Shown here in pieces: positions 2,793 to 56,764 of a stretch of DNA of 64,000 nt (position 1 is its first letter; every line of letters begins with the position of its first letter). The notes below the pieces were generated by a model. It saw nothing but the letters and a program-made list of their open reading frames with translations. It did no database searches and was not told the DNA's origin. Origin of the DNA: Harmothoe impar (lineage: Eukaryota; Annelida; Polychaeta; Phyllodocida; Polynoidae); the NCBI GenBank assembly GCA_947462335.1, contig OX381720.1, positions 63,447,946 to 63,511,945 on the forward strand, in the 5' to 3' direction. The position numbers and the translations under genes are program-made.

Positions 2793-2793
2793 C

Positions 2794-2806
2794 TGGTGCC
2801 GTGACC
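2794..2806 (+). other. Primer-binding site of the gypsy element
   Basis: TGGTGCCGTGACC begins one base after the 5' LTR. It starts with TGG, as expected for pairing with the CCA end of a tRNA. I did not identify the tRNA. Confidence 0.7.
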
Positions 2807-2911
2807 AGTAGCAGCAAAGGTAGCGGAACAAGCTAGTTGTTCGAGAATATGTTCGGGTTATACTGAACAGGAAGTCCTTGATTGGACAGACAGTCCTTTA
2901 GTGGACGGACA

Positions 2912-5452: not shown

Positions 5453-8400
5453 AGGGGGTTACCGGGGATGGCAGGACGGTAACCCCTGAGGAAATATGTC
5501 AGATTATCACCGACGTTGGCGGTGAAGATTCATTAACAGTGAATGCGTCCAGCAAGAAGGGAGATGGGACCGTACATCCCGGAAACCATGAGGCTGGGGA
5601 GACTGGTACAACAGGCGCCCAGGGGTGCGCGTATGGGAAACCTAGTGCCAGTTTAGAGGAGTCAATAACCAAAGAGTTGGTTAAGGTTGGAGGAACCAGG
5701 CTTCCCCCGGGTCATCCTTGTCTGGAACACCTGAAAGGATGTGGATTCGACCTGGGCACTGATAGTGACCTTCACCGGTTTACTAGGAATCCCTCAGTAA
5801 CTGATGGGAAGAGGTGGTACGTTTCCTGTTCTGTACAAGGAAAGACTGGGGAGTTTCTTATGGATACTGGAGCTAGCCACTCCATGGTCTCTAAGAGATT
5901 CATCAGCTTATTGCCGAATATGTGTGAGAACCTCACAATGAGGGTAAACGCATGTACGGCCGATGGTACCAGAATGAGGACATTTGGACGGACTTTTCTG
6001 ATAATCTCTGTGGCCGGGAAAGAATTTGTTTGGGCCCCGACCATAGCTGAGATTGAAGATGATGGTATTCTTGGTTTGGATTTTGCGGCGCTTTTCGGTG
6101 CGACTTTGAATCCGAAAAGTGGGAAGTTGAAAATTGAATACCCGTATGATATGACCATACTCTGTAAGTTGAGAGTGATAAGTAGTGTCGCTAGTGTGGC
6201 ACAGACTGTGAAGATTCCCCCGGGAATGACCTGTGACGTGTTAGTCAGTTCAGGGAGGCTAATCCAGAAAGGATTAGCGGTAATCGAGCCGGATATGGCT
6301 GTATTATCCCGGAAGGGATTGGAATCTGCGGATACCCTAGTAGGGAATTCCAGATGGACAGTGACACCCATTTCCAACCCCGGAAACTCCACAGTATATC
6401 TTGAGAAAGGCACTGAAGTTGGGAAAGTGATACTTGCGGAGGCAGTCACCAGTAGCCACCAAGACCTGAGGTTAGAAGAAGGAGGGGAAGAGGAATTGCA
6501 TGAAGAGTTAACTAAGTTGTTAACAGGATCGTCCATAACGGATGAGAATGATCAGGAAGCCCTAAAAGCTATGCTGAAGAGATGCAGGCAAGCTTTTGCC
6601 GCCCCAGGGGAACCCCTGGGGAGAACCAATAAGGTATTGCATGAAATTAAAACCGGGGATAACCCCGCTTTTAAGATCCCTTATAGGAGATTACCCCTCA
6701 AGAAGAAGATTGTAGCTGAGGAAGAGATAGCGAAAATGCTGAAGGATAATGTTATTGTTCCCAGCATGAGCCCTTGGTCCTCCCCTGTGTGTATGGTAAC
6801 CAAGAAGGACGGTAGCATACGGTTCTGTATTGATTACCGGAAACTGAATGGGTTGACTAAGAAGAACTCCTATCCTCTTCCTAGGATAGATGAGACGATT
6901 GATTCCCTGGGAGGGAATGAATGGTTTTGTACCCTGGATTTACAGTCCGGGTATTGGCAAGTAGGCATGAAGCCTGAAGATATGGAGAAAACCGCGTTTT
7001 CTAGCCATATCGGGTTGTTTGAATATAAGGTAATGCCGTTCGGGTTATGTAACGCGCCGGCCACCTTTGAAGCCATGATGGAGACGCTGTTAAGTGATTT
7101 ATTATGGCGGAAATGTCTAGTTTACCTGGATGACGTAATTGTGTTTGGAAAGACATTTGCGGGTTGTTTAAGTAATTTAGAGGAAGTCTTAAACCGAATC
7201 ATGTCTAACGGTCTCAAATTGAAACCAAAGAAATGCAATCTGTTTAAGAAGGATATTAACTACCTAGGGCGGATTATTTCCACCGAGGGGGTTAAGGCGG
7301 ATCCGGAAAAGATCAGGAGTGTAACTGAATGGGAAGTCCCCAGGGGTCCTAAAGATGTGCGATCCTTTCTAGGATTCTGCTCATACTATAGGGATTTCCT
7401 GCCGGGGTATTCCCGGGTAGCCTATCCGATCCAGTGTTTGTCACACTGGACACCCGGAAGTAGGAAGGAGGAGTTCCCATGGGGGAGGGAACAGGACACA
7501 GCTTTCTTAGCAATAAAAAAGTTGTTTGTAGAGACCCCGGTGTTAAAGTATCCTACCCCGGATGGTCACTTTGTATTGGATACCGATGCTAGCAATGAGA
7601 GTATTGGGGCCGCCCTCAGTCAAGTCCAAGGCGGAGTGGAGGTTCCCATTGCCTTTGCTAGTAATACTATGAGTAAGACCCAGCGTAATTATTGTACCAC
7701 TAAAAGGGAATTGTTGGCTGTGATAGTTTATACTAAAAAGTTCAAACACTTCCTTTGGGGGTCCGATTTTACGCTAAGAACAGATCATTCCTCTTTGAGA
7801 TGGTTATTGAATTTCAAAGATGCGGAAGGAATGATTGGACGTTGGCTAGCACACCTTTCCGAGTTCGGTTTGGAGCAAAGTCAGATCCAGCATAGAGCTG
7901 GGGTAAAGCATGTAAATGCTGATGCACTTTCCCGACGTCCTATCAGGAAGTGCGAAAACACCAACTGTGATGACTGTGGTCAGCATGAAGCTGTCATAGC
8001 CGGAGCAAGGATTCCCTTTGAGATCAAGGGAACTGGGGTTCTGGAGTGGTCCATGGGAACCATCCGGAAATTCCAGGAAAAGGATCCTAACCTCAGCCGG
8101 TTGTTGGTATTGTTACCTAGGAAGATACGGCCCCCGCGGCCTGAGATTTCCCTGGAGAATCGGGAAATGAGACGACTAATAGCTCAATGGGCAGAGCTAG
8201 AGGTCCAGAGCGGAATCATCTACCGGTGGAAGATTAATTCATCCGGTAGGAGAATCCGGCAAGTGGTAATACCTTCCGGTATGAGGAGGGATGTTATGTA
8301 TTATTGCCATGGACACCTGACCAGTGGACATTTCGGGAAAAAGCGTTCCCTGGAACGTCTGAAAAGGAGATATTACTGGCCAGGGATGAGTAGTGATCTA

Positions 8401-9660
8401 TTAAGATGGGTTGCTACTTGCCCGGATTGTTGTAAAAACAAACCTGGGCCTGGGATGGGTAAAATGCCTTTGTCCCAGGAGTTGTTTGGTGTAAGATTTG
8501 CGCGAGTCGCCATAGACATTATCAGTGGGTTTAAAACTACCCCTGATGGTAATACTTGTATGATGGTCGTCACTGACTATTATACTAAGTATACGAGAGT
8601 GTTTCCATTAGCGGATCACAAAGCAGCAACCTGTGCAAAAGCTTTTGTTACAGGTTGGGTATTGCATCTTGGGGTTCCCCTAATGATGCATAGTGACCAA
8701 GGTCGGGAATTTGAATCTGATCTTTGGCAGGAAATGTGTCACCGACTGGCGATTTGTAAGACGAGAACAAATCCCTATCGACCACAAAGTGATGGAATGG
8801 TTGAGAGATTCAATCGTACCTTGATTCAGGTTTTGAAATCCCTGGTGAATGATAGAATGGATGACTGGGATGAGCAGTGTGATTATGTATGCCATGCATA
8901 TAATAGCACTGTCCATTCTAGTACTTCCTGTTCCCCGAATCTGTTAGTTTTCGGGGAAGATTTAATAATGCCCGCTGATCTGGTATTTGGGGTGGTCGGA
9001 ATGAACCCGGAAACCCCCTGCCATGTGATGTTTGTGGAGTCATTAAGAGATCAATTCAAATATGCTTATGAATTGGTGAGAACTGAATTGCAGAAGAATG
9101 CTACCTGGCAGAAGACCGGCTATGATCTAGGCCTTAAGCCGCGACGATTCAAAGTTGGTGATCAGGTAGTAAGATTACATGAGCCGTTATCGACTCTGAA
9201 ACTTGCTAGTAATTGGGACGGGCCCTTTGTGGTTACCCGCATAGTAAGTGACAGTACTGTAGTGATACGTTCATTACAAGGAAAGATGTATAAATCTAAT
9301 GTAGCTCGACTAAGAGAGTGGAAGGGGAGAGATTTGTCCCTGGACTCGTATGAGTTGGAAGTTGATACTTTGATAGAGGAAAGTGAACAGCGGAAATTAG
9401 TGAAGGAACCTCCCCGGAAACGCGGAAGGCCGCGGAAGGAGGTCTCCCGGAAACTAATGGTGCAGAAGCCCGTCATCCCAAAAAGATCCGGGAAGAAGGC
9501 GGCTAATAAAGTCTCGCTGGCTGAAGGGAAAAGGACCCGGAAGAGTGTGGTTAGGGCTAAATCCACTCTGGAAAAGGCGTGTCCTAGAACCAGGTCTAAT
9601 GTTATGCCTAAAAACATAAGACGCAGTCCCCGGTTACTAGCCAGGGACGGTATAACCTAA
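5437..9660 (+). CDS. pol: Pol polyprotein: protease, RT, RNase H, integrase
   Basis: The frame is open from 5437, just after a TGA, to TAA at 9658-9660 and overlaps the gag end in the -1 frame. It needs no start codon. Residue numbers count from 5437. Aspartic protease DTGA is near 143; RT has VYLDD near 562; RNase H has the DTDAS motif near 715. Integrase has an HHCC zinc region (about 8308-8430) and a catalytic triad of D (about 1027), D (1087) and E (1123), giving D-x35-E. A GPF-type module follows near 1262. The tail is very basic and includes an AT-hook-like KRGRPRK near 1328-1334, which could steer integration to AT-rich DNA or chromatin. All key residues are present, so it looks functional. 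Confidence 0.95.
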   Translation, partial: GFGKLEGVTGDGRTVTPEEICQIITDVGGEDSLTVNASSKKGDGTVHPGNHEAGETGTTGAQGCAYGKPSASLEESITKELVKVGGTRLPPGHPCLEHLKGCGFDLGTDSDLHRFTRNPSVTDGKRWYVSCSVQGKTGEFLMDTGASHSMVSKRFISLLPNMCENLTMRVNACTADGTRMRTFGRTFLIISVAGKEFVWAPTIAEIEDDGILGLDFAALFGATLNPKSGKLKIEYPYDMTILCKLRVISSVASVAQTVKIPPGMTCDVLVSSGRLIQKGLAVIEPDMAVLSRKGLESADTLVGNSRWTVTPISNPGNSTVYLEKGTEVGKVILAEAVTSSHQDLRLEEGGEEELHEELTKLLTGSSITDENDQEALKAMLKRCRQAFAAPGEPLGRTNKVLHEIKTGDNPAFKIPYRRLPLKKKIVAEEEIAKMLKDNVIVPSMSPWSSPVCMVTKKDGSIRFCIDYRKLNGLTKKNSYPLPRIDETIDSLGGNEWFCTLDLQSGYWQVGMKPEDMEKTAFSSHIGLFEYKVMPFGLCNAPATFEAMMETLLSDLLWRKCLVYLDDVIVFGKTFAGCLSNLEEVLNRIMSNGLKLKPKKCNLFKKDINYLGRIISTEGVKADPEKIRSVTEWEVPRGPKDVRSFLGFCSYYRDFLPGYSRVAYPIQCLSHWTPGSRKEEFPWGREQDTAFLAIKKLFVETPVLKYPTPDGHFVLDTDASNESIGAALSQVQGGVEVPIAFASNTMSKTQRNYCTTKRELLAVIVYTKKFKHFLWGSDFTLRTDHSSLRWLLNFKDAEGMIGRWLAHLSEFGLEQSQIQHRAGVKHVNADALSRRPIRKCENTNCDDCGQHEAVIAGARIPFEIKGTGVLEWSMGTIRKFQEKDPNLSRLLVLLPRKIRPPRPEISLENREMRRLIAQWAELEVQSGIIYRWKINSSGRRIRQVVIPSGMRRDVMYYCHGHLTSGHFGKKRSLERLKRRYYWPGMSSDLLRWVATCPDCCKNKPGPGMGKMPLSQELFGVRFARVAIDIISGFKTTPDGNTCMMVVTDYYTKYTRVFPLADHKAATCAKAFVTGWVLHLGVPLMMHSDQGREFESDLWQEMCHRLAICKTRTNPYRPQSDGMVERFNRTLIQVLKSLVNDRMDDWDEQCDYVCHAYNSTVHSSTSCSPNLLVFGEDLIMPADLVFGVVGMNPETPCHVMFVESLRDQFKYAYELVRTELQKNATWQKTGYDLGLKPRRFKVGDQVVRLHEPLSTLKLASNWDGPFVVTRIVSDSTVVIRSLQGKMYKSNVARLREWKGRDLSLDSYELEVDTLIEESEQRKLVKEPPRKRGRPRKEVSRKLMVQKPVIPKRSGKKAANKVSLAEGKRTRKSVVRAKSTLEKACPRTRSNVMPKNIRRSPRLLARDGIT
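5443..5486 (+). promoter_or_regulatory. -1 ribosomal frameshift signal between gag and pol
   Basis: The slippery heptamer G GGA AAT (5443-5449) is in the gag frame and directly followed by the gag stop TAG (5450-5452). Five bases later a perfect 9-bp stem forms: GGGGTTACC (5455-5463) with GGTAACCCC (5478-5486), enclosing a 14-base loop. The pol frame is exactly -1 to gag here. This is the classic arrangement for programmed -1 frameshifting. Confidence 0.85.
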
Positions 9661-9983
9661 GCCGGTACACAACGAGTGTGGTGTCCTGTAATCTTGTTAA
9701 ATATTTAAATGTTGTAATCAGTTATGTGTGGAAGTAAGTACGGTCGGAATGATCGTGATAGTCCCCCTGTCAAGGATCCCATGGGTGATGGACGGATAAT
9801 CCGGTGAATGTGCTTTATTATGCCATTCATATATATTTCATTGATACTCTCGACGAGTTGACAGAGCGTAAGGATTAACACGTGGAATAAGGGTACCTGT
9901 TTACAATTAAAACGCGCGGTGACCTGGTTCCAAGGAAGTGGGTCACGGGACGCGCGGGGTTGCGCATGCGCGGTGGCGCGCCT
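9661..9983 (+). other. Spacer between pol and the internal promoter
   Basis: Noncoding spacer of the gypsy element. It becomes GC-rich toward its right end (9900-9980), with GGTGACCTGG and several GCGCG runs, as expected of promoter-proximal DNA upstream of the TATA box at 9984. Confidence 0.5.
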
Positions 9984-10020
9984 TATATAAGGCCCGCGGA
10001 GCGGCGGGAATCGCCAGTTG
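9984..10020 (+). promoter_or_regulatory. Internal TATA promoter for ORF3
   Basis: TATATAA (9984-9990) lies in a GC-rich context and is followed by CCAGTT, whose A (10016) is 32 bases downstream, the same geometry as the LTR promoter. The first in-frame ATG in the downstream leader is that of ORF3 (10133). This suggests ORF3 has its own mRNA rather than depending on the genomic transcript. The call is inference from motif spacing. Confidence 0.65.
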
Positions 10021-10132
10021 GGGTTGAGAGGCGGTCCAGAGCAGACGTGAGAGCTCGGACACGACCACTGTCGCTGTGGGGAGGTGGACCCCCTTAAATC
10101 CATCAATAACACTTTTCTTGAGTGTGACAAAC

Positions 10133-13100
10133 ATGTCTTCCGAGACAGACCACCAACAGGTGGACCCTCTTCAAGAGGGCGACTCCGCTAGCGGAGGAAA
10201 TGTGGTTGTTAATCAACCTGACCTCGTGGACCAGGAATCTCTGGATTTCCTGGAACAAGGGGAGATAATGGACGTCGACGTTGACTCTCAGTCACCGCTT
10301 CGCCCTGCTAATGTCGCCGCCAATTACTTGGAAGGTCTAGACATTGAGGCCATCAGCCCTGCTGACGGTCGCGCTGATACCGGTGAAGCTGAGTATCAGG
10401 ATCAGGGTCTATTGTACCATGGGAAACCGCCGGCGGACGTTGAAAAACCCCGCCCGGCCGTACCAACCCTGGGAGGCTTCATGTCCAATTACGACGGACG
10501 TGAAGTAGAACTGCACGAGGACGTGCTAAGGCTCACGGCGGAGGGAGCTCCCCGCCGGATTGACTCACTCACGAGTCAGGCCATATTGCTCTTCCTGTTA
10601 GTGGAGGAGCAGGAGGAGATGCCCCCGGACTGGTTTGTGTACTGGGAGGCACTCCAGAAAGGACTACGCGTATGCTACTGCTTACGACGAGCTGTCTTCG
10701 ATTTACACATCGCGGACATCGACAGGTTAATGCCCGCACTCCCAATTCTGTCTTTGGACCCGAATTGTGGAGTTGCCGGGATGTTGTTGACTGGTGTCAA
10801 CAGATACCGGGCGCGAATCGGGAAACTCCGAGAGCCTAAAACCCGGAAGGAGTACGAGATTGCTGCCGCTAATACGCAGGGAATAGTCTCGTATGTCCTG
10901 GATGTAGCCACTATTGAGGACTACATGGATTCTCACCACGTCAAACGAGATATTGCCATATCTTGTTTGGTTGATGAGGCGGTTCGTACGGTACGAACCA
11001 GATCTTCCAGTGCGGAGGAGAAGGCGCGAGTAAAAGCGCTGAAAGCCACACCTAGGGGGCGCGGCAGTAAAGGTGAGAGGGGGGCCTCAAACCGGTCAAG
11101 CTCGGCTGACAGCAACCAGTCTGACGAGTTTGTCCAGGAGAGAGGACGTCAGGCTCGCCGGAACGAGAAGGCAAGATTCGCTAACTTGCCGGACTCTGTA
11201 TTAGCAGAGGGACTACCGGAACAACCTTCCGGAGGACAGCCCGGTATTCCCAGGGCTGAGGAGGTAACGGATGAGGCGATGGACATAAACGAAGCCAATA
11301 CTCCGGAACCCTCCAACACCACCACCACCACCACCCCGGCCCTTGTGGCAGACATGACCGCCGCCGCGGGAGCAGCGGCCGCCGTGGCGGCTGCGCTGGT
11401 ATTTAATCCAGCACGTCTCAGCCCTCTCCGTAGTCCGGCTCAGTCGGACCCGGAAGAGGGAGAGGTTCCGGCTAACGCTGAGGAACCAGGAAATGCCCCA
11501 GAGGACCCCATCCCGCCTAATGACGTGATGAGGCGAGTCTGGCAGAACGCTAACAATAAGTTCCGCGTGTTTATTCCCAATTCCTGGGAACAGTGTCCGA
11601 TTGGTCCCACCAATTTCGGATGTCCACCTGAGACCAACTGTAAAGGTCAAAGTGATGATGAGGATTGGATCCGGAATACCCCCCGGGACCGTCCTCCGTC
11701 TGCTTTTTATCAGCAGTGGCTAGATCAACTCAGGATCCTGCCAGACACTTACTACAGTAAGGAGCAGAAGGAAAAACTTCTTTTTGCGGTTAACCGCTGG
11801 TACAGTCAGCGGGAAAGGAATTGGTGCCCATTCGCTACATGTGTAAACACGATTGGCACAGACAGAACCGTGTTTGTAACAAAGCAACGGTTTCTGCGAC
11901 ACCTCTGTGAAAATCACATGCACCACTGTGTGGTGTATCACTGTGATATCACAGTAGGTAGGGAATCCCAGCTATGTAACGGGTGTTTAGAACCCCGGAG
12001 AGGTGAGCTTATGCGCCACATGAAGGATTGCCATAACATGGGAATCAGTGTAGCTCGCAATCGTGTGAATGCGCTACATGACGCCGTTTGTGAACAATAC
12101 AAATCACTCACGGAGGAACAAAAGGCTAAGATCCGGCCGGCAACTCCCTTCTACTGCGAGGTCGCAGATGGGAAGTTCAAAGCCAGGATTGCCAGAGTGG
12201 ACGGACGACATAAGTTCGCCATGAATGACGAGGAGTATACGGTGTTATGCACTACCCGTACTTCCCGCAGAGGTGGCGGTAGTTTCCGTCAGCCGGAAAC
12301 CCGGGGTAGTTCCCGGGGGAAGAGCCGGTCCGCCCGCGACCGCTCTCGATCTCCTGCGGTCTCACCGGGACCAAAACGGAGACATGCCGGATCCAACTTA
12401 GAGGATCTCGATAATTCCTACTATGGGAATTATCATGCCCCGGAAGGTCGCGACTATTATCGCGAGTATCCAGACCCGCTGTTTACAGACCGGAAAGATC
12501 GGAAACGTGATTCCGGTGGTCAAGCAGCGGCGACTAACATGGATTACCGTTCCAGACGTCTGAGCAGTTCAGACAGTGCCACCAGTCAACCTGACCATGG
12601 AGGTGCCCGGCCTAAAGAACCGGCTACCAGAACAAAGGCTTCCCTGCCTTTGACGTACCATCTGGGGACCACTACCAAGCTAACCCCCAGGGACGTCCGG
12701 TCGCCCACTACCCCAACTCGGGACATGCAGGGCTTGACCGTGAAAACAGAACCAAAATCACTAATCTCAGTGGTGACGCCTCGGGGCATAACTGTCCCGA
12801 AGGCTGCAGCGGTTGCGAAAGCGCCGCAAGTGGATGTTAAACCCGTGATTCCTGTAACCCAGGATCCGGTTGTCATCCAGCCAGTCGCGGGCACCTCCCG
12901 CACTGAAACTACCGGTGGCGTAAAGTTAAAATACGTCCCGATAGTCAACTACTTCTCTAGGGAAGAGAAGGCGAGCTGCGAAGTGGGACAAAGGATCGTA
13001 ACAGAATTCCAGGAGTCCCAACGCGAGCTGGCGGTGGAATATAACACCAAGATGTTAGGCCTGTTCACGCATGGCCTAAAGATTGCCCATCGGGAGGAGA

Positions 13101-13345
13101 AAGCATTAGTCGCTGTTGGCAATGCTGATTACTTGGCTAAAAAGTCAAGGGAAGCTGCTTCAGGGCAAAAGACCGCTGAAGCCGCCGCAGGGTTCGTTCA
13201 GCAAGAGAACGAGAAGTTAACCAAACGGTTACAGGACATGAACGTAAAATTTTACGGGGTGTTTGGCGTGACTATCGATACCTGGGATGGCACAGCTGAG
13301 CACGCGCTTGCTTTAATGAGGGCAAGAGATGAACCTTTAGGTTAA
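10133..13345 (+). CDS. ORF3: zinc-finger / RS-rich protein of unknown function
   Basis: 1070 residues from the ATG at 10133. The acidic N-terminal third is followed by a helical region (about residues 125-300), then disordered stretches with a Thr run and an Ala-rich segment. A Cys/His-rich block comes next, starting near residue 564 with CPFATC, then HLCENHMHH, CNGC and MRHMKDCH, and looks like two C2H2-type fingers. An Arg/Ser-rich basic stretch follows (about residues 720-760), and a coiled coil closes the protein. I see no signal peptide or membrane segment, so it is not an envelope despite its position. It could be a nucleic-acid-binding, nuclear or packaging factor. I do not recognise the family. 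Confidence 0.8.
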   Translation: MSSETDHQQVDPLQEGDSASGGNVVVNQPDLVDQESLDFLEQGEIMDVDVDSQSPLRPANVAANYLEGLDIEAISPADGRADTGEAEYQDQGLLYHGKPPADVEKPRPAVPTLGGFMSNYDGREVELHEDVLRLTAEGAPRRIDSLTSQAILLFLLVEEQEEMPPDWFVYWEALQKGLRVCYCLRRAVFDLHIADIDRLMPALPILSLDPNCGVAGMLLTGVNRYRARIGKLREPKTRKEYEIAAANTQGIVSYVLDVATIEDYMDSHHVKRDIAISCLVDEAVRTVRTRSSSAEEKARVKALKATPRGRGSKGERGASNRSSSADSNQSDEFVQERGRQARRNEKARFANLPDSVLAEGLPEQPSGGQPGIPRAEEVTDEAMDINEANTPEPSNTTTTTTPALVADMTAAAGAAAAVAAALVFNPARLSPLRSPAQSDPEEGEVPANAEEPGNAPEDPIPPNDVMRRVWQNANNKFRVFIPNSWEQCPIGPTNFGCPPETNCKGQSDDEDWIRNTPRDRPPSAFYQQWLDQLRILPDTYYSKEQKEKLLFAVNRWYSQRERNWCPFATCVNTIGTDRTVFVTKQRFLRHLCENHMHHCVVYHCDITVGRESQLCNGCLEPRRGELMRHMKDCHNMGISVARNRVNALHDAVCEQYKSLTEEQKAKIRPATPFYCEVADGKFKARIARVDGRHKFAMNDEEYTVLCTTRTSRRGGGSFRQPETRGSSRGKSRSARDRSRSPAVSPGPKRRHAGSNLEDLDNSYYGNYHAPEGRDYYREYPDPLFTDRKDRKRDSGGQAAATNMDYRSRRLSSSDSATSQPDHGGARPKEPATRTKASLPLTYHLGTTTKLTPRDVRSPTTPTRDMQGLTVKTEPKSLISVVTPRGITVPKAAAVAKAPQVDVKPVIPVTQDPVVIQPVAGTSRTETTGGVKLKYVPIVNYFSREEKASCEVGQRIVTEFQESQRELAVEYNTKMLGLFTHGLKIAHREEKALVAVGNADYLAKKSREAASGQKTAEAAAGFVQQENEKLTKRLQDMNVKFYGVFGVTIDTWDGTAEHALALMRARDEPLG

Positions 13346-13352
13346 AAAGACT

Positions 13353-13358
13353 AATAAA
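13353..13358 (+). terminator. Poly(A) signal after ORF3
   Basis: AATAAA lies eight bases after the ORF3 stop codon, followed by a T-rich stretch. Use of it would give a short ORF3 mRNA, but would cut the genomic RNA before the 3' LTR, so it must be weak or regulated if real. Confidence 0.35.
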
Positions 13359-14811
13359 AGGTTCTGAGTCTATTTCTAATTTTTTTAGGAATAGAGGAGG
13401 GAACTATAATAGTTTCCGGATAGATTAATTGTTCTTTCATTTAATCTGACGTCATAAATTGTTTATGACGGGGTTTCCCTTTTAAGGGGAGGGGCATCTT
13501 TTTAGATGCATATGGATCAACGCGGGGGGAACCTTCCGTGGAAGCTCTGGACTTACCTAACTACTCAACTCTCAACTATAGCCTACCGATGGGGAATCAG
13601 GACTCCACCGGGAAGCTACCAACCTAACGTCCCTGAAACTAACTTTTGGGATACGTTACCGTGATGTGTTCCTGATACTATTATGCTGAGTTATAAACTG
13701 TTCCCGTCCAAAGGATTACGTGTCAAACAGACAATGCTCGTGGTTCCAGTTCTACTTATCTATTTCATGAACATTCCTGGAGCTAGGATTACGTGTTAAA
13801 CGGACAGTACTCGTGGTTTCCAGCCGGATTATAATTATATATGTCATGAACTTTACTGGAGCGAGGACGGGATACTTATCGAGCTGTATACATATGAACT
13901 TACCTTCGGGTGATATTTATCCAAGAAACAGTATTAAGAAGAGGAGAGCACCTCACTCATTCGTCTATTAGAAGCGGAGAGCACCTTGACCACAACTAGA
14001 TCACCAGTAAGCTATATTTAATTGTAAGGGTTTCCTGGTACACTGCCAGGTTACTCATTAAAACGTTTTTTAATATATAAAATACATCATTATTATGTGA
14101 TACATATCACCTCAGGTGTTCCAATAAGGTATTCTCATATTTACCTTATGAATCAGGTTTCATAATATGCTACATATGAAGATTGTATGATCTGATAAGC
14201 TAGGAAACGTGGCTACCCGTAATGTTTATATGAAGTCGTTAAGACTATGTGTATATACTAAATATACCGCCAGGTATTGTCGTGTGTGTTGACTCTGTTG
14301 TATGTTGCGAGAGATATTAATACTCCGGTTATATAATCGGATTACCCGGCTTAAAACAAAGGCTGTGGTTACTGTTACCCATTGTGTGAATGTTTTCATT
14401 AAATCACAAATCAATGTAAGACGCGGGTGGTTGTGAGTCCTTATCAGGACTGGTTTTTAATAACTTTTCTGTTAAACTTAAATATATACACACCCCACGC
14501 GCATTTTTTTAATAACCGAGTAAGGAAACTTCATAAGGAAGTCATATCGAAATGTGTCAAGCCGTTCGATTGTATGTATGATATTATATTCACTTGTCAT
14601 AAAACATACCTAAATCATCTATTATGGTTGCTATTACAGTGTAATGCCATATTTATATTGAGTTTTTATGATCTCGCTTGTGTAGTATGTCGTAATAATA
14701 TGTTTACGCCCCTAGTTACTGTATAGACAATAACTATAAAGTCGTTGTTCTAAGAGGTTTTCTATATACTAGGAAAACCGTATATATATTCATTACCACC
14801 TAGTTTTGTCT
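13359..14811 (+). other. Long 3' noncoding region of the gypsy element
   Basis: About 1.45 kb without a convincing reading frame. It holds a twofold tandem repeat of about 75 bp (about 13710-13862) marked by AGGATTACGTGT and CATGAAC. The rest is AT-rich. Confidence 0.6.
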
Positions 14812-14822
14812 AGGGGGGGTAG
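14812..14822 (+). other. Polypurine tract
   Basis: AGGGGGGGTAG sits directly before the 3' LTR and is the expected primer for plus-strand DNA. The same GGGGGTAG/TGTAGGGG junction appears in the miniature element at 56545. Confidence 0.8.
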
Positions 14823-15306
14823 TGTAGGGGCATAATATTACATATTAATCTCATACACGGTATTTCCGGGTAACGTCTGTTTACTCGGCTTCTCCACCTG
14901 GAGCTAGTGCACACAGTTCCCGGGAGAGGGCGCAGGTCCTCTTCAGGTGACCGTGTGCCGCTCTCAGGTGGGCGGCCGACCCACCCACCTGGCCACGTGA
15001 CCTAAGAGCCGGTGTTATATAAGACCCATGTGTTTACCTGGAACGGCAGTCAGTGCAGGCCCGACTGACGAGAGACTTCACATGTCCAACCGTGCGGACA
15101 GAGTTGTATGCTAAGAGTTGTATACTGACCGTTTCCTCTATTTATAGAGAAACCTGATTTACCTGTGTGTATTCATTTTACACTGATCGTTCCCTAGTAA
15201 AGGAACTGGAGTTATTATTCTTGTGAATAAAGATAGATATATTCTCGCACCTGGAAACTGCCGTGATCGTTGTTCTTTAACCTAGAGTTAATTACGAACC
15301 ACCACA
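14823..15306 (+). repeat. 3' LTR of the gypsy element
   Basis: 484 bp, no difference seen from 2309-2792. The AATAAA at 15226-15231 would end the genomic RNA. Confidence 0.95.
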
Positions 15307-30253: not shown

Positions 30254-33200
30254 TCATATCTCTAAAGGACTCGTTGTCACACCGTCAGAATGCACGCGAC
30301 GCTTATAATACAAGTAGTGCACACCATCTTTCTCTATGGTGTAAGTGACCATTTTGTTTCGTACCACTTTGAAATTTCTATTTACCGCAAGGAGAGTTTT
30401 TCATTTGCGAAGAACATCCAAGAAGTCGTCTGGTTCTTTAGGGTTTTGTTTCTTCTGTACACCTTTTGCACTCCATTTTTTGGATTTTCTTTCACCGGTG
30501 CCGCTGAAACCGATCATAGCAAATGTAAGTTTTAGGGTTGAGACTTAGGTTCCCGTCACCTTCCCACTCCGCTTTCATAAGCCCCGAAGTTCTCAGATCG
30601 TGAAGGTAACGTCTCTCACAACATCCGCCGGGCGGCGGACACCATTCTCGCACTCTTTCCGTTTTTATCTTCACGAAAAGCTCTAAGTGATCGTCGCACA
30701 CCGCTGTCGGAATCCACTTTCGTTTCTCTCTGAAGTACGTCTCTCTCAGGTGAGGTTTGACTAGGTCATCCAACGTGTCACCACTGAGAGCCATGTAAAG
30801 ACTGTCGGTGTCCATTTGACAAAGAGCATAATCAAGCCGATCGACGAATCTATCCAAAAAGTCGTATGTGAACTCTAACATTTTCAACTTCGCGTACTGG
30901 TATACCATGAACCCTATTTGAATAGGGAGGTTGTTCTTGACTGTTTTCGGTTGTAGTTCGACTTCAAACAGATCAGAACTCAACTCGGACGCCTTTTGGA
31001 AGCGCCACGAATTGGCCAATAGTTCGAACTTCCGACTGTCAGTGTATCTCACCGCCGTGTGTTTTTCTTTGTTGCAGATTGTTTTACCTTACGTGGCGTT
31101 TCCCATTAACTTGTAACAGTCTGACAGAATTTTCTCGTTCTCGTTCACGTCGCCACGTCTTCGCGCCGCCGTTACTTCGTCCGCGAAACCGGCAAAGGAG
31201 CGTTTAGGTAGGTATTCTATGACCAGCTGTACTTTGGTGACTGTCAAATTGTGCTCTAAATACCACTTGAGAAGTGGCGTTCCCAAGAGAATATTTTTTC
31301 CGTGGTAACTCCCTATCAGACATCTCTGAGGCGTGTTCAACAGCTTTTCTTCCTGCGCAAAGTCTGACATGTGAGGTCCTATGTCTGATTTTGAAACGGA
31401 TACGTTCTTGAAAACGGGGGTCATTTCTTCGAAGTAGTCTCGCGTCTCTCCTCCCTCAGTGAAGCGCACTGATATCGGTGCGACGGTATGCACTCGTGAG
31501 CGTGGAACCAACACCCGTGAAACTGGAAAACCGTATTAGAGGCCGCGTGAAACCCGTCGACGCGAATTCTTCGACAGCCTAGACCCGTCTCACCGCCGTT
31601 GAAAGCGTGGCGCAGTTTCACGTCGCGGTCGTGCTCTACGAACCGTAACCACTCCAAAGCGCTGTGAGAGTTTCTTTACCTAATTTTGGGCTTGAACTCG
31701 GTCTCAGGTCGTCTCACCGCGTAATAGCCTGTGCAGTGCGCTTCGCTCAAGCAGCGCAAGTACAGACAGTTAGCGTCTAGGCCTAGGATGTGCTGGCACG
31801 TTCTCGCTTCTTCGCCGTACTTGTGCTCCCTTATCCGCGTGGTGCCCTTCTCGTGAAATCTATGGAAGATGATGGAAGGACCACCGACTAGATTTTCTTT
31901 GATCAGAGCGTGGAGGACGGCGTCGAACTGGGGGAACGTTGTGAACGTAGCTTCTAGGTTTTGGAAGAGGAACCGTAAAGTCAAACTGGCGAGAGAGATC
32001 CCGTCTTTCAACATGTCAATGGCGCGATCTTGGAAAAATTTAGCGTGATTTTTCAGAGCCTCTATAAAAGGTTTGACGTCTTTGTTGTTGTAGTGGATCA
32101 AGTAATCTCTCATAGTTTGCATCTTCTCGTCGGACCAAACTTTCTGACATGCGGCGTAGTCGGATTCGGACATTTTGACGCCCGTCAGTTCGCTGTCAAA
32201 AGCTAATCTTGGTGGCAGTGTTCTGTTTCCCAGTTTCCTGGTAGACGTCATCCATTCGTAAGGAAAGTGACCTTTCTCTTCATTTCTGGTGAAAGCTCGC
32301 AAATAATTCGCGTAGTTGTAACTGGGTGCCAAATAGTTGACTACGTCCAAGAAAACCGTGTGCTGTGTGTAAACCGCCAAGTATTGATTGCTTCTCTTTC
32401 TGACGCTGAATTCTTGGTTTCTTCGGTCTCCGGAGGCAAAGAACGAGGAAGGCGTATTTTGATCAGGTTCAAGTCGTAACGCCCCGAGTTGAAGCCCACG
32501 ACTGGAGCTTGACGGATGTATCTCAGAAGCCGCTTCTTCAGTTGAGCTAACGGGTGTCTGGTCTGAGCCGCAGCGAAGCCGCCGCCACCTGGAGAAGGGG
32601 TGAATGCCGCCTCCTCCAGCAGGAGAGCTTCACCTATCGCCGCATCTAACTTCGCTAACCTCGGTCGGTAAAGTTCTAGCACAGCTTCCCCGATGACTTT
32701 GGCGTTCTCGTTTATGTGATTTAAAACTCGGTCCGACAAGGGGTCGGAATCTGCGTCGGATTCTCTGACGAAGCAGACCGGCCCCTCCCACCCTGGAAAG
32801 TTGGATGCGACGCTAGCCGACAAAGGTACGTGATCCCACAGCAGGGACACGTGTTCGGTCGACGGTTCTCTGCACGGTCTGAAGAAAGCCTCGAAATCGA
32901 AGGTGATCTTGTAAGGGTAGATTCCGGAATGTCCGTCCGGAGGAAAAATGGAGAAGTCTGCTAGCGCTTCGAAAATTGTTCTCGAATTTTGGTAGATGCC
33001 ACCTACGTAGCGCAACTTGACTTGTCGGCAAGAGGAAAGCTGGTTCCTGTGTCTCTTCAGCAAGAACTCGGTGGTGAACGCCGCCTTACACTTGCAACAT
33101 TCGTATATGCCCGCGTACGCGTTGAAGTCCGTGACCAGAGAGACGTGCAAACCGCCTTTCGCCGTCAGGTGTAGGTTTACTTTACCTCGGGCGGCCAGAG

Positions 33201-34137
33201 TTCTGGAAGGCGGTCTGATCAGAGTAACGCGTCTTCTCAACTTCCGCCCCGGCACCTGACGCGACGCGGTGTAAACCGCTATTTGTATGTCAAACAAGTT
33301 CTCTAACGCGGGTAAGTCGCGGATGTTCAAACCCGGAAAGGTTTCAGGTGTGGCAGCGGGACAGAACTGACGTAACAAATCTGAAGCGCGCTTGTTGGTG
33401 TTGTATAAGTGAAAGGAAATGCAGCGGAAGACGCAGAGGTTGTCCTTGTTGGGAAAATCTAACACACCGCTTCTCTTTCCAACTCGACCGGCCTGAGTGA
33501 TCCTACCGCCTATGGGAAATTCCCCCGGTCCCATGTAAACGCAAATGTTCAAATTGGTAGGAAAAAGAACGTGCCACTTGGTGTCAGGGTCGCAAAGTTT
33601 CCGTACTTCCTCGCAAGCGACGGTGTTTTCCATCTTTGAGAGGAGCTCTTCCAAAGTTTCTGAATTAGTTATAGTAGGGAGCGGTTGTATGAGAGTTGCG
33701 TTGTTCTGGGAGGCGTGAAAGTAGCGCAGTTTGCTCTTGTCTTCTCTGTGTTGTAAGAGTAAGCCTACCGAGAAACCCACTTTGTATCTGAATCTTTGTG
33801 TCAAGTGAATGCGACGCATAGTATCTACAGCGTCACTCAACTCGCCGGTTGGTAGCCTGAAGTTTGTTACACTCACGCGAGTCCCGTGCATCCTGACGCC
33901 CGTTTGTATCGCAGGCCAATTCGCCGTGAACGTTTCCTCCCCGTTCGGTACAGCACGTATGCGCGGAGGGATGGTCACCCTGTCCAGAGATTCGCGTCGA
34001 CAGGCGATCTTTCGGCAATCGCCTTCGCCGCATAGAGGGCAAAACTTAGGTATTACTCTACATTTTTCTACGTGTCTGTCGTGATTGTACGGTCTTTTAA
34101 AAATTTTGAAACACTTTTCGCAGACGTACTGCGTCAT
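30254..34137 (-). pseudogene. DNA polymerase B (protein-primed type), frame-broken
   Basis: The ATG at 34135-34137 starts a frame of about 600 residues. It has an N-terminal Cys/His finger (CEKC...H), a second finger (CCKC...H), exonuclease motif I (FDFEAFF, near 32890) and exonuclease motif II (GFNSGRYD, near 32490). The gene then breaks. Frame changes occur near 32390, near 31670 and between 31420 and 31510. A stop codon (31086-31088) replaces the motif B tyrosine present in copy 1, and a 1-base change near 30510 shifts the tail. Motif A (GLDANCLY) is near 31770 and motif C (DTDS) near 30805. Copy 1 lacks the two lesions I could compare. The product cannot be made as one protein. Confidence 0.9.
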
Positions 34138-34225
34138 GTTTTTTTGTTTTTTGTTTTTTCACTTAGTTACCAATTATTAAAAAAAATAAAAAAAGTTTTT
34201 TTTGAGTTTTTTTTTCCAACTACTT

Positions 34226-34241
34226 AGCCGTCTATCTATCA

Positions 34242-34309
<68 letters not shown>

Positions 34310-34335
34310 GTCTGTCTGTGATCCGTCTGTCTGTC
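34226..34335. repeat. Tetranucleotide microsatellite (TATC)n
   Basis: About 22 TATC units followed by TGTC units fill the gap between the PolB start and the end of the upstream PC4-like gene. Confidence 0.95.
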
Positions 34336-34390
34336 TCATACAGCGTACGTCAAACACTGTGTGTGTGTGCGCGTGAGCGTTGAGCGTCTC

Positions 34391-35834
34391 TCATTCCAAA
34401 TCTATACCGAGAAATTTGAGAATAATCTCTGTTTTGTCATTCAACTCTTTGAGCGCTCTGGCGGACAGCGTCACCCCCTGCTGTGTGGGTTTTTTGTCAG
34501 GACCTTCGTACTTGCGCACGTGGATGAGGTTCTTACCGCTGTAGTAGCTCACAGCTGCGTACACTTCGCCCTCCTCATCCAGCACTGTGAACCAGGGGGT
34601 GTGATTAGGTCTTCCTTGCGCGGACGCTGTGTCGCGTATGCGCACCACTGTGCGGATCTCGGCGATGCGCGCTATTAGCTCCCGCAGCGCGTCGGCGGTG
34701 AAGTGCACTCGCTTGCCTCTGGTTATAGACGCCTCTTTCACCTGGCCGTCTTTTGTGTAGCGCGGCCTCCTAGACAGTCTAGCCTCGTCCTCCCAGATCT
34801 CCAGCGTCAAAGTCCCGTCTAAGCAGAACTCTAACCCGAGAGGACGGGGGGTTTTCTCTGCTTCTTCTCGTCCATCTTCTTCTTTTTCTTGTATTTTTCT
34901 CTTCTTAGTAGGCCTTGTTGTTCTGGAACCCGCCTTAGAACGTTTCAGACCCGCAAGAAGAGTAACACCATCAGCGTGAGCTGAATCAGCAGCAGAACCA
35001 ATAACAGGAGCAGCGTCTGCGCTGGTATCTGACGACTCGTTGTTGGAACAGGGCAGCCACACGCCGTCGGTGCTGAGTGTAGCGGTAGAAGATGAAGCGC
35101 CGCCGCCCTCGTAAGGTGGTGGTGAGGGCAGTCGCCACGGACCGGACGCGCCTCCAGTGGAAGTGAGGTCGAAAGTAGTGGAAGAGGGGAGCCGAAAAAA
35201 CATACCGTCCACCCGTAGCCCTTCGGGTTCGTGGTACGCCTTGTCGTCAGCGTCGTTCTCTGTCTCACCCTGTTGCTGCTGCTCCTCCTCCTCCTCCTCC
35301 TCCTCCTCCTCCTCCTCTTCTTCTTCTTGCTTTAGGGCATATATGTCTACTACGCGCTGCTGGGGCTGAGTGTCCGAATAGCTGTATGTCTCAGGGCGAG
35401 TGGCGTCGATGGCGTCGGTTGATGTAGTGGTGGAGAGGTGCTGTGCAACGTGCAGCGGTTCATCAAAATCAGCAACAGCAGTGGGCAGGTAAAAACCCGG
35501 TCGCCAGTACTGCGCTGTGCCAGGAGAGTTGTCGTCAGTAGTAGTAGCGGCAGCAGCAGGTGCAGCAGCAGCAGCAGCAGCAGCAGCAGGCGCAGCAGTA
35601 GCAGGCGCAGCAGCCTCAGCAGGCGCAGCAGTAGCAGGCGCAGTAGTAGCAGGCGCAGCAGCAGCAGCAGCAGCACGAAGAGCACCAGCAGCACGAGGAT
35701 CACCAGCACCAGCAGCAGCAGCACGAGCAGCAGCAGCAGCAGCAGTAGCAGCGGCAGCGCGCTTAGCAGCAACAACCGTCGCGAGTGTAACAACGTCGCT
35801 ACCATGACGACTACTACCAGTAGTACTGCTACTA

Positions 35835-35865
<31 letters not shown>

Positions 35866-36052
35866 CACTACTACAACTGCTGCGAGCGCTCACTACAGCG
35901 GGAGGATGATAAGACCAAGCGGTTGCGGCGGTAGTCTCATCTTCAGTAGCAAGAGGAGACGCTGACGCTAAACGAGCGCTGTTCCGCATACTCTTCTTGT
36001 TCTTGAACTTGCTTAGATCCTTGGACGGCACTAGTTGTTGTCTTTTGCTCAT
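34391..36052 (-). CDS. PC4-like tandem-domain ssDNA-binding protein (predicted)
   Basis: 553 residues from ATG 36050-36052, which has a strong ACCACCATGA context; the frame is open further up but only with non-ATG codons. The N-terminal 240 residues are low complexity (Ser and Ala runs). An acidic Glu run follows (about residue 255), then a nuclear-signal-like TKKRKIQ, then two related C-terminal modules at about residues 404-471 and 486-553. The second, with YSGKNLIHVRKYEG and QGVTLSARALKELN, has the beta-strand plus helix layout of PC4/p15 ssDNA-binding domains; the first is more diverged. A ssDNA-binding role beside PolB would suit replication by strand displacement. The domain call is by pattern and needs a profile search. 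Confidence 0.65.
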
Positions 36053-37057
36053 GGTGGTGACTGTAGAGAGCAGCAAAAGACTGAGTGAGTGAATGGGTGT
36101 TTCCAGCCCCCTTATATACGCCTTCTCGCTTCTAATGCTAAGCTACTTACTGCCCTGTTCAGCTGCCGCCGGCTGACCGGTGGCCATTCACAAAGAGAAA
36201 CAAAAGACATAATGCATGACGTTTTCAGCTGGATCCCTTTCCCCCTTTTTGAGAGATCGACTGACATGAGCTAAGCTACTTACTGCCCTGTTCAGCAATT
36301 CAACGCGCGTTAGCTGTATAAAGGATTAAGCGGTTGCTGCCGCCGGCTGACCGGCGGCCATTCACAAAGAGAAACAAAAGACATAATGCATGACGTTTTC
36401 AGCTGGATCCCTTTCCCCCCTTTTTGAGAGATCGACTGACATGAGCGGGCGGTGTACCGACTGTGCTAATTCAACGCGCATTAGCTGTATAAAGGACTAA
36501 GCGGTCATGAGCTTAGAGTGTGTATACAAAAAAAACTACAGGAGGCGTGTGGCGTGAAGCAGGACCCCCTAAGATGAGTGTGTCTGTCTGTGAGTAGAGT
36601 CGTGTGCATGTGGTGAGCGACTTAAGTGTAAAACAAAAAAAAATCACCGCCTCCTGCCGTGGTGAGTAGACCGGCCGGCTAGGGGTGACAGCTGACTAAG
36701 GCTGTGCATGAAAATCCGATTTTCACCTGACCTCTGACGTTTGTTACAATGAATGCCAAAGGGAGAGAGAGTCGTCCTCAGGTAGGGGGTAGGAGGTAAG
36801 GCTATGGATAAGGAAAAAACAACATTTTCAGCTGGCCTCCACAAATGGCGATGACATACTCCTCGTCATCTAAGCTCTTAAGAAGCTCTTAAGGAGCGGA
36901 GCGGCTGCTAGACAGCTGGGGTGCTGTTGGAAATAGGATTAAACTCCCTCTGTATAAAAGCTCTGATTTCTGTTGGAAAAAAAAACATATCACCTCTGAC
37001 CACAGTAACGTCTACTACCACCACCACCACTACCACCACCACCACCAGCACCACCAC

Positions 37058-37107
<50 letters not shown>

Positions 37108-37119
37108 AGACGAGATGAG
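36053..37119. promoter_or_regulatory. Divergent promoter region with internal duplication
   Basis: The 1.07 kb between the two divergent genes contains a TATATAAG on the minus strand (36111-36118), about 60 bp before the PC4-like start codon. A block of about 135 bp marked by GCCGCCGGCTGACCGG and CATAATGCATGACG occurs twice (about 36160-36275 and 36335-36455). An AATTCAACGCGC...GTATAAAGGA block also occurs twice (36297-36330 and 36469-36503). The plus-strand GTATAAAGGA copies are TATA-like and could serve the death-domain gene. The right end is a (CCACCA)n/(GCC)n tract (37015-37106). Confidence 0.65.
37015..37106 (+). repeat. ACC/GCC trinucleotide tract in the 5' leader
   Basis: About twelve ACC-type units run into about seventeen GCC units and end 13 bases before the ATG of the death-domain gene. 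Such a GC-rich leader may form structure and slow ribosome scanning. Confidence 0.9.
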
Positions 37120-37851
37120 ATGAGTGGTCAAGCTATTCCACTTTCAATCTCGCCTTCACCCCCTTGTCCACCTGAAAAATTACTGCGGCTTCACGACGTG
37201 AGACGCGCGGTGCAGGCCGATGGGGAGAGTAGAGAGGTAGGACAGCAGCGCTTAGCATATAGGGACGCCTTGCTTCGTCAACTAGGTAAAGAGTTGAGCG
37301 GCTCTTGGAGAGTGTTGGGCAGTAGCTTAAAAGTTACCGCCGCCCGTATGGATGCTCTAGTAGAGCGCAGTGTCAAGACACCGGAGGAGCTGTGTACGGC
37401 GATGTTCCGAGCTTGGTGGGTTGAAACCCAGCATCGTCATAGATGGGGAGAGCTCACCCGCATTAGACGAGTGGAACTGTTGGCTCAGTGGATGACCCTT
37501 CTCCACAGGCAGGGGTTGGAATTCGAGAACCCCGACTCGCACGTGATGCATAAGCACTTGGGCGCCCTTGGCAGATGCCTAGGTAGCAGGTGGAAAGAGG
37601 TGGGGGGACATTTAAAAATGTCGCCTGAGAAGTTAGATAAGATCGCTGAAGAATGCGAATGCAGAGGAAGTTCCGCTGAGTGGGCCTTCCAAGTGTTGAA
37701 AATGTGGCAAGCTGAAGCTGACAGTGCCGGCAGTACACCTTTTGAACTCCTTCGAGTGTTGACTGAGGACATGGGAAAGTTTGACCTCGGCATCACGATA
37801 TTACTTGACTTTATCAAGCAAGAAACAACGACGAGAACAACGGACGTGTGA
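37120..37851 (+). CDS. Tandem death-domain-like protein of the PolB element
   Basis: 243 residues, ATG at 37120. Two related helical modules are visible. The first, about residues 45-105, contains LLRQLGKELSGSWRVLGSSL, ARMDALVE and ELCTAMFRAWW. The second, about residues 145-220, contains LGRCLGSRWKEVGGHL, EKLDKIAE and WAFQVLKMW. The spacing of Leu, Trp, the Leu-Gly pair, an Ile/Leu-x-x-Ile/Val and the late Leu-x-x-Trp matches death-domain superfamily folds. No other domain is seen. The frame is open although PolB beside it is broken. It ends at the inner border of the right TIR. Likely a captured host adaptor or a modulator of death or innate signalling; the function is inference. Confidence 0.65.
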   Translation: MSGQAIPLSISPSPPCPPEKLLRLHDVRRAVQADGESREVGQQRLAYRDALLRQLGKELSGSWRVLGSSLKVTAARMDALVERSVKTPEELCTAMFRAWWVETQHRHRWGELTRIRRVELLAQWMTLLHRQGLEFENPDSHVMHKHLGALGRCLGSRWKEVGGHLKMSPEKLDKIAEECECRGSSAEWAFQVLKMWQAEADSAGSTPFELLRVLTEDMGKFDLGITILLDFIKQETTTRTTDV

Positions 37852-54955: not shown

Positions 54956-56014
54956 CCAACCCATGTGTCATGCCTTACGCATTCATTTATTAAACAATAT
55001 TGGAATATCTTTTAAAGATATTTTCAAAGCATAGTATCCGATGTTTTACTACATAATGATGCATATTGTACACCTTTCATGTCTCAACACTATAAAGTAC
55101 CGGGACGTATGATAAACTGTGTGTTATACACTTCCACATAACCAAGGTGCACTTGGTAGATGGCTGGCAGGTGGGTGGTGGTATGGGCACTGCACCCTAG
55201 TGGTGGAGGGGGGGGGGGGGGTGTAGAACCGTGATGTGTATCAAATACGTGATATGTAGTAGCTACACAATTACTACACATCACGGCTGACCTTGCAAAC
55301 GTGATGTGTATCAAATATACGTGATGTGTAGTAACCATCCAACCCTGATGGTTAGTAGCTAACGTGATGTGTAGTAACTTGAATTGAGGCACCTCCAACC
55401 GCTATCTGTATCAACAAACGTGATGTGTATCAACAAAGGGGGCCCATCCCCAAAACAGGGGGGGGGGCTGAATATGTTTGCCTCCCCCCTCAAATTTGCC
55501 AAGACCCTATAATACAATACACAAAATTCCCAAACTTACCTCTCCTACATAGGAAAAAGTAGGGGCAGAGGGAGAGGGGCATGGGGTCCCGATTACAATA
55601 TCTTTATTTACAATTCCTATATATAACCCTGTAAATGCGGCATCAAGCCTTAAAGCCGATACTTAAGGCTGTTTGCCCCCCCTCCCCCCTCCCTTAGCGT
55701 AATTTCAATATATAATCTTAAGGCTTGGGTTATGGTGTTTTTAAGATAATGCATCTTTAAGATTATTGACTGAGGATTAACATTATGTATATATAATCTA
55801 GAATATTTGTCTGTGAATTATAAAATTCTTTGATACATATCACGTTGATACAGATCACGTTGTGTTGATACAGATCACGTTGTGTTGATACATGTGTAGG
55901 GGTCGGATTCCCCGTACCCTGGTGGAGAGCCCGAAGGGGTGAAACACCTGGGTAATCCTCCCCCTCTGTACCATACCGATCCAGTAACGTAGGGAGCGGG
56001 GAACAGTCAGACAC

Positions 56015-56087
56015 GGGTTGGTAGTGTAACGGTTAGCACGCTTGTCACCGGTGCGAGAGGTCTGTGGTTCGATTCCTGGCCGATCCA
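56015..56087 (+). tRNA. tRNA-like gene inside the left LTR
   Basis: 73 nt that fold as a tRNA. The acceptor stem GGGTTGG pairs with CCGATCC over all seven positions (two G-T pairs). The D stem GTGT/GCAC has four pairs, and the anticodon stem CTTGT/GCGAG five pairs including two G-T. The T loop TTCGATT and discriminator A are present. The T stem is poor (three of five pairs) and position 33 is A instead of T. The loop reads CACCGGT, so a decoding role is doubtful. The A box (TAGTGTAACGG) and B box (GGTTCGATTCC) match the consensus, and TTTT follows at 56097-56100. It looks transcribable by Pol III. Its last ten bases match the element's primer-binding site. Confidence 0.75.
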
Positions 56088-56096
56088 ATGACTAAG

Positions 56097-56100
56097 TTTT
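56097..56100 (+). terminator. Pol III-type T4 terminator in the left LTR
   Basis: TTTT lies ten bases after the end of the tRNA-like gene. The second LTR has the same at 56747-56750. Confidence 0.65.
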
Positions 56101-56115
56101 CCGCGACCTCTACAA

Positions 56116-56128
56116 TGGTGGATCGGCC
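56116..56128 (+). other. Primer-binding site of the miniature element
   Basis: TGGTGGATCGGCC starts one base after the left LTR. TGG would pair with the added CCA tail. The remaining ten bases are exactly complementary to GGCCGATCCA, the 3' end of the tRNA-like gene in the element's own LTR (56078-56087). Complementarity ends after those thirteen positions. Confidence 0.85.
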
Positions 56129-56530
56129 GCGATGAATCGGGTAGTACGTTGACTGCGAACGGTAGGAGCATTCCAGCTTGCTGGGGATTGGCCACCTGCT
56201 GGCGGTTGGTAGTTGGAGGAGCAGGTTGGGAAGTGTTGGTCCCTAGTACGGGCAGTTGGAGTTCAGCATGGAGTTCAGTCAACAAATTGGCTGAATCGGT
56301 ATGGTGTAGAAAGCTTCCATCACTGGGAAGTCAGGGTATCTCAACAACTGCTTGATAAAGCCCCATTGGGACCTTCGGTCTCCAGTGGGTGAGAATGCCT
56401 GGTGCTAGGTGCCTCTATACTCCGGGGGCTGGGACTCTCTGTAACTGCTTGATAAAGCCCCTTCTAGGAGGGAGAGAAAGCCCAGGGTTGGTAACCCCCC
56501 GGAAAATCCGAATCTAGAGGACATGATGGA
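56129..56530 (+). other. Internal noncoding region of the miniature element
   Basis: About 400 bp without a reading frame of note. A CTGCTTGATAAAGCCCC block occurs twice (about 56345 and 56445). This could be a packaging or dimer signal, but only the repetition is seen. Confidence 0.6.
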
Positions 56531-56544
56531 AGCTGAGGGGGTAG
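56531..56544 (+). other. Polypurine tract of the miniature element
   Basis: AAGCTGAGGGGGTAG-type purine run directly before the right LTR. Confidence 0.75.
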
Positions 56545-56764
56545 TGTAGGGGTCGGATTCCCCGTACCCTGGTGGAGAGCCCGAAGGGGTGAAACACCTG
56601 GGTAATCCTCCCCCTCTGTACCATACCGATCCAGTAACGTAGGGAGCGGGGAACAGTCAGACACGGGTTGGTAGTGTAACGGTTAGCACGCTTGTCACCG
56701 GTGCGAGAGGTCTGTGGTTCGATTCCTGGCCGATCCAATGACTAAGTTTTCCGCGACCTCTACA
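56545..56764 (+). repeat. Right LTR of the miniature element
   Basis: 220 bp; I found no difference from the left LTR. Confidence 0.9.
56665..56737 (+). tRNA. tRNA-like gene inside the right LTR
   Basis: Exact copy of 56015-56087, with the same A box, B box and a T4 run at 56747-56750. Confidence 0.75.

Follow-up and report, generated by a model that had tools for sequence, protein, structure and literature searches.

The element and its family

The analysed DNA is a window of 64,000 nucleotides from Harmothoe impar, in which a complete Helenus-type TRIM is present. Its features, with positions counted in the window, are given below.

55895..56764, + strand: Helenus-type TRIM, complete at 870 bp, between CATG and CATA, a 4-bp target duplication with 3 bases in agreement
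55895..56114, + strand: 5′ LTR, 220 bp, which starts with TGTAGGGG and ends with CTCTACA
56015..56087, + strand: tRNA-like sequence within the 5′ LTR, including an A box and a B box, last bases GGCCGATCCA (Rfam RF00005, 36.2 bits)
56097..56100, + strand: T4 run that may terminate Pol III transcription in the 5′ LTR, read from the sequence (3′ LTR counterpart at 56747-56750)
56116..56128, + strand: primer-binding site (PBS) TGGTGGATCGGCC, whose tenth base (56125) is G in the window copy
56129..56534, + strand: internal region, apparently non-coding by the stop-to-stop frame listing
56535..56544, + strand: polypurine tract (PPT) adjoining the 3′ LTR, read from the sequence
56545..56764, + strand: 3′ LTR, with no difference from the 5′ LTR
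56665..56737, + strand: tRNA-like sequence of the 3′ LTR (Rfam RF00005, 36.2 bits)

The two LTRs are identical over 220 bp (55895-56114 and 56545-56764), or over 221 bp if the preceding G is counted, and each carries a tRNA-like sequence of 73 nt, which scores above the Rfam cut-off of 29 and has its A box TAGTGTAACGG and B box GGTTCGATTCC both present. The PBS begins one base past the 5′ LTR and over its 13 nt is the exact complement of GGCCGATCCA with CCA added, that is, ten bases fit the tRNA-like sequence and three fit a CCA tail which is absent from its DNA. Within the window this 13-mer occurs exactly only once, at 56116-56128. On the identical LTRs, the 73-nt sequence in each of them, the intact boxes and T4 run and the placing and fit of the PBS, the preliminary description was borne out. 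Its view that this is a miniature LTR element whose LTRs carry a tRNA-like sequence, comparable to Cassandra, is likewise supported, and the class is already published as Helenus, as described in PMC10886601.

In the internal region, no overlapping stop-to-stop frame of at least 180 aa was found, shorter frames being outside that listing. Its segment 56291-56310 is 85% complementary to 55965-55984. As a separate observation made by eye, GGGTCGG and CCGATCCA in U3 (55899-55905 and 55976-55982) could pair like an acceptor stem; the last eight bases are the same as those of the tRNA-like sequence, and the predicted fold does not form this pairing.

The host genome (1.51 Gb, 736 contigs) holds at least 42 matches over the full 870 bp with about 99% identity, a lower bound, since 40 of 2242 first-look candidates were scored. 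All 42 listed matches, including L025-L032, were taken as the sample, which is made of 38 isolated elements and four copies in the tandem arrays of L033; for variable sites one array copy was kept and three were dropped, giving 39 copies. Perfect 4-bp target duplications flank 25 of the 38 isolated copies among the matches listed, and their LTR pairs differ at 0 to 3 positions. In the 5′ LTR, the T4 run is kept in 38 of 39 copies, the exact A box in 36 and the exact B box in 38. The family is young and abundant in the 1.5-Gb genome. The window copy has private changes against the 38 other copies, two of which are present in both LTRs and one of these two within the tRNA-like sequence. Tandem LTR-internal-LTR arrays of the TRIM were seen at L033 and also at L089.

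Primer-binding site and tRNA-like end among the copies

The preliminary description had asked whether the PBS and the LTR tRNA end vary together, and among the 42 listed copies the variation was found on the side of the PBS, the tRNA-like sequence ending with GGCCGATCCA in both LTRs of 41 copies and with TGCCGATCCA in one. The PBS is TGGTGGATCTGCC, with T as its tenth base, in 30 of the 42 copies and TGGTGGATCGGCC, with G, in the other 12, so that it fits the LTR tRNA end with 13 of 13 bases in 12 copies and with 12 of 13 in 30 (the LTR end is further changed in one of the 42). Because copies were ranked by how closely they resemble the window copy, and this carries G, the sample is biased toward this base and the true share of G is probably below 12 in 42; ten further TRIM copies, chosen by another base of the PBS, carry T in all ten cases. 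Of 100 variable substitution sites across the 39 copies, this tenth base (element base 231) is the most variable, with the minor base in 12 of 39 copies, the next sites having 3 of 39. G and T forms were each seen with both states of sites 215/865 and 350 and of the indel at 608, where the conflicts with 215 and 350 depend on three minor-allele copies each, and the minor bases at 452 (3 of 42) and 535 (4 of 42, all at L033) occur with T only.

These counts bear on the claim that the element encodes its own primer. In that account, which we regard as fairly improbable, the Pol III product of the LTR would be trimmed and processed as a tRNA, receive a CCA tail and prime the element's own reverse transcription at least part of the time; the G of the PBS would be the footprint of self-priming, the T would record an older or related primer such as the GGCAGATCCA LTRs of relatives could supply, and no cellular tRNA would be needed. 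The exact 13-nt match in 12 copies is in its favour, and so is the fact that the minority allele which fits the LTR sits at the outlier site of the element and is met with both states of 215/865, 350 and 608. The diverged copy L069/L076 gives the other form of exact fit, its 5′ LTR tRNA ending with GGCAGATCCA and its PBS carrying T; however, L069 (92% identical to the window copy) has GGCTGATCCA at the end of its 3′ LTR tRNA, and the 5′ match may possibly be a private mutation. The same account is weakened by the mismatch in 30 copies of a sample which favours G, by the T in all ten further copies and by the minor bases at 452 and 535 that go with T only, and a PBS rewritten in each round would bring G near to fixation. 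From these base counts, obligate self-priming is unlikely. What stood of the claim is the exact match in the window copy; that a primer is encoded was not established, as 30 of 42 copies are off by one base and the cloverleaf is damaged.

A second reading takes the G/T split as a subfamily mark, spread by descent with recurrent mutation or recombination and unlinked to priming, and it is a possible account which we hold tentatively. The copies are nearly star-like with few other variants, and a single diagnostic site can define a subfamily, the conflicts at 215 and 350 being of three minor-allele copies each. Against this, the only substitution of intermediate frequency in 870 bp falls within the 13 nt of the PBS, and its minor base is the complement of the LTR tRNA. 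In retroviruses the PBS is as a rule copied from the primer, and rewriting by two primers would give the picture seen here; the same picture would result if the base mutated repeatedly, if copies recombined, or if a single subfamily had few conflicting sites. In yeast Ty1 and Ty3, according to PMC5371799, the primer does not pass its sequence on to the PBS, and for this reason the polymorphism may be simple descent.

The quality of the tRNA-like sequence was analysed on the majority sequence of the family, where the acceptor stem (7 pairs, two of them G-U), the D stem (4 pairs) and the anticodon stem (5 pairs) can pair in tRNA positions, which agrees with a self-encoded primer, while the T stem is broken by two non-pairs, and U33 is missing from the anticodon loop, which reads CACCGGU. 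The cloverleaf is far weaker than the best fold (-13.4 against -22.7 kcal/mol), and the 73-mer of the window folds no better than its shuffles (z -0.35). Standard ARAGORN called no tRNA in the window; with the mitochondrial mode, and with lowered thresholds, it called tRNAs within the element. Over the listed copies the standard mode gave a tRNA-Arg (ccg) in both LTRs of one copy and none in the other 41, and also a tRNA-Arg (ccg) in one LTR piece of locus L080; these two calls speak for priming by the LTR product, and the T-stem non-pairs, the preference of the RNA for another fold and the 41 copies free of calls speak against it. The LTR sequence is probably a promoter-bearing relic of a tRNA rather than a tRNA which takes part in translation. 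A working tRNA gene was considered and thought unlikely on the ARAGORN result, the T stem, the missing U33 and the fold, though one of the 42 copies is called.

Candidate primers and helper

For the majority form of the PBS, the host genome was searched with two patterns. The first, GTTCRANNNNNGGCAGATCCA, gave 7 places (2 with the reversed pattern as control), of which six, L064-L069, are of LTR type and align with the element, L068 weakly, and the seventh is L070. The second, GGTTCRANNCNNNNCAGATCCA, gave 11 places (control 0), of which nine are tRNA-like sequences of LTR type, ending with CAGATCCA behind a B box and judged partly by eye: L071, L073-L076 and L080 resemble the TRIM family, and L077-L079 are three near-copies on one contig assigned to the LTR type by eye only. 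L072 in this set is unrelated, and L081 is the same place as L070; its B box is good, a T run is present, and neither ARAGORN nor Rfam calls a tRNA there. In the 1.5 Gb, therefore, an intact cellular tRNA gene for the majority (T) PBS was not found by these two patterns, both of which assume a canonical T loop; a cellular tRNA that shares the LTR end itself may exist. As a side observation, L077-L079 and L066 carry diverged LTR-type tRNA-like sequences ending with GACAGATCCA or GGCAGATCCA, possibly of other Helenus families; within the 3 kb examined at L066 and L077 there is no direct repeat of at least 40 bp.

This search result favours a self-encoded primer, and it counts against ordinary cellular priming, in which one or two isodecoders whose position 67 is A or C would prime and the LTR tRNA-like sequence would be of the same family by chance. 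We find this explanation doubtful. A further pattern, CANTGGTGGATCKGCCH, gave 14 places (control 1), ten of which are TRIM copies and four have no TRIM match. Whether these four lie in other LTR elements was judged from about 50 bp of flank, the pattern covered elements whose next base is not G, and other LTR elements may use this PBS; the result is taken as a point against ordinary cellular priming. On the other side, the animal Helenus families are read in PMC10886601 as primed by cellular tRNA 3′ ends. For ten fixed matches between the PBS and the tRNA-like end, arithmetic gives about 1 in a million, and a chance match of bases was rejected on this ground, whereas a coincidence of family, at about 1 in 45 for tRNA families taken at random, was not, which is also in favour of this explanation.

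The preliminary description had offered capture of the cellular primer by read-through as another origin of the tRNA-like sequence. Simple read-through is unlikely and was rejected on orientation, as a copied primer would be expected in antisense beyond U5 and the copy here stands in sense inside the LTR.

Our preferred explanation, to which we give a probability of about 0.6, is that of a Helenus-type TRIM whose tRNA-like sequence serves chiefly as a Pol III promoter and whose primer site is tied to the same tRNA lineage. Pol III would start at the tRNA-like promoter of the 5′ LTR, read through the weak first T4 and end at the T4 of the 3′ LTR, with R formed of the tRNA-like sequence and its trailer; a stop at the first T4 would leave a short tRNA-like RNA. 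The proteins of a Ty3/gypsy element may copy and integrate the TRIM, and the minus-strand primer may be a CCA-tailed tRNA or tRNA-like RNA with the end GGC[A/C]GATCCA. The LTR sequence and the primer would then share their 3′ end because both belong to one tRNA lineage, and the own short transcript, or that of a relative, may sometimes prime and give the G form of the PBS. The Helenus anatomy, the at least 42 copies, the target duplications, the kept boxes and T4, the PPT-LTR junction, the fit of the PBS, its outlier tenth base and the nine LTR-type places among the 11 of the second pattern are consistent with this explanation. In its cellular-primer form it predicts a cellular tRNA with the majority end, and the two patterns did not find one. 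Self-priming of a facultative kind and descent from one tRNA lineage are each possible.

For the helper, the window itself holds a Ty3/gypsy element at 2309-15306 with identical LTRs of 484 bp, the target duplication ATAA, open long gag-like and pol frames and an extra frame of 1105 aa (10028-13345) with no Pfam match. Bases 56537-56552 of the TRIM are identical to its PPT-LTR junction at 14815-14830, and the PBS is spaced by one base from the LTR in both elements, but the junction match is short (16 bp) and the PBS TGGTGCCGTGACC and the LTR of the Ty3 element differ from those of the TRIM, which stands against the preferred explanation. By these sequence matches the Ty3 element would be at most a relative of the TRIM helper. 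A Ty3 pol relative, P0048, with 58% identity, is assigned to a Calditrichaeota MAG and is perhaps eukaryotic contamination.

Among viral contigs, a search for the helper gave no relative. Matches of the TRIM in the viral and prokaryote collections (2, 11, 11 and 0) were taken as chance on a rough estimate rather than a computed one, by which one set of 11 exceeds the few expected; the two matches of the first set were inspected and ARAGORN found no tRNA in them.

Three other places of the window were noted. At 26056-26027 on the minus strand, a 30-bp match of 87% to the part of the LTR that precedes the tRNA-like sequence is followed by the head of another tRNA-like sequence, GGGGATGAAGCTCAGTGGTAGAGC, and this is perhaps a Helenus relative with another tRNA. 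At 30492-36142 on the minus strand there are frames with Pfam matches below cut-off to DNA polymerase B and a PC4-like domain, which by their resemblance we take to be possibly the remains of a Maverick-like element. At 37009-37851 there is an open frame with a Death-domain match, for which relatives were found in three proteins only.

Comparison with known systems

To our knowledge, LTR elements that use a tRNA primer take it from the host, and within the literature searched we know of no other report of an LTR tRNA that matches the PBS of its own element. The nearest known elements are Helenus (TRIMp3; Kojima 2024, PMC10886601), which in that description have tRNA-like LTRs, PBS, PPT and, in animals, a 4-bp target duplication, with gypsy as the inferred helper of the animal families. 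Pol III transcription is likewise an inference in that description, and for most families the tRNA-like sequence is probably no functional tRNA. The present family resembles Helenus, as characterized there, in its size and lack of coding capacity (870 bp and no frame of at least 180 aa, the TRIMs of the survey being below 1000 bp), in the tRNA-derived sequence, with its A and B boxes, of each LTR, in the PBS adjoining the 5′ LTR and the PPT adjoining the 3′ LTR, and in its many copies. The 4-bp target duplication (perfect in 25 of 38 isolated listed copies, 3 of 4 bases in the window copy), the mostly non-working tRNA-like sequence (no ARAGORN call in 41 of 42 copies, T-stem non-pairs, no U33) and the tandem arrays, which the account in PMC10886601 mentions for one family, are further likenesses. 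The difference lies in the PBS: the survey, in its passage on this point, found no complementarity between the LTR tRNA-like sequences and the PBS and hence assigned them no role in priming, whereas here the PBS fits the LTR tRNA-like sequence with 13 of 13 bases in 12 of 42 copies and is off at the tenth base in 30.

Cassandra and Ajax, as described in PMC10886601, are similar in being TRIMs whose LTRs hold a promoter of Pol III type. Their promoter is derived from 5S, and that of the present element from a tRNA, since at Rfam cut-offs only tRNA and no 5S match was obtained.

In Tf1, the primer comes from an internal cut of the element's own RNA, and the present element is similar in having a stretch of its own RNA complementary to the PBS. 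In the predicted folding the 3′ part of the tRNA-like sequence pairs with the PBS region, at an energy also reached by shuffles. The difference from Tf1 is that the PBS here starts with TGG and fits a CCA tail which is not encoded, and this points to a processed tRNA-like RNA rather than to an internal cut of the Tf1 type. The preliminary description had called a self-primed LTR element a new strategy; priming independent of tRNA is already known from Tf1, as reviewed in PMC5371799, and the part that stands is the match of PBS and LTR tRNA, which breaks with the Helenus report as given in PMC10886601.

If self-priming is true, it would be a new route; otherwise the family shows in what way the tRNA of the promoter and that of the primer can become the same. 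Youth, high copy number and two forms of PBS, with a fit to the LTR tRNA in one form alone, make the family well suited to test this. The only survey of TRIMs with tRNA sequences that was found (PMC10886601) sought such a self-match and reports none. Elements with tRNA-like LTRs are already published and what is new here is the match of the PBS to the LTR tRNA; compared with the known systems, the element is a Helenus-type TRIM of ordinary anatomy with an exceptional primer site.
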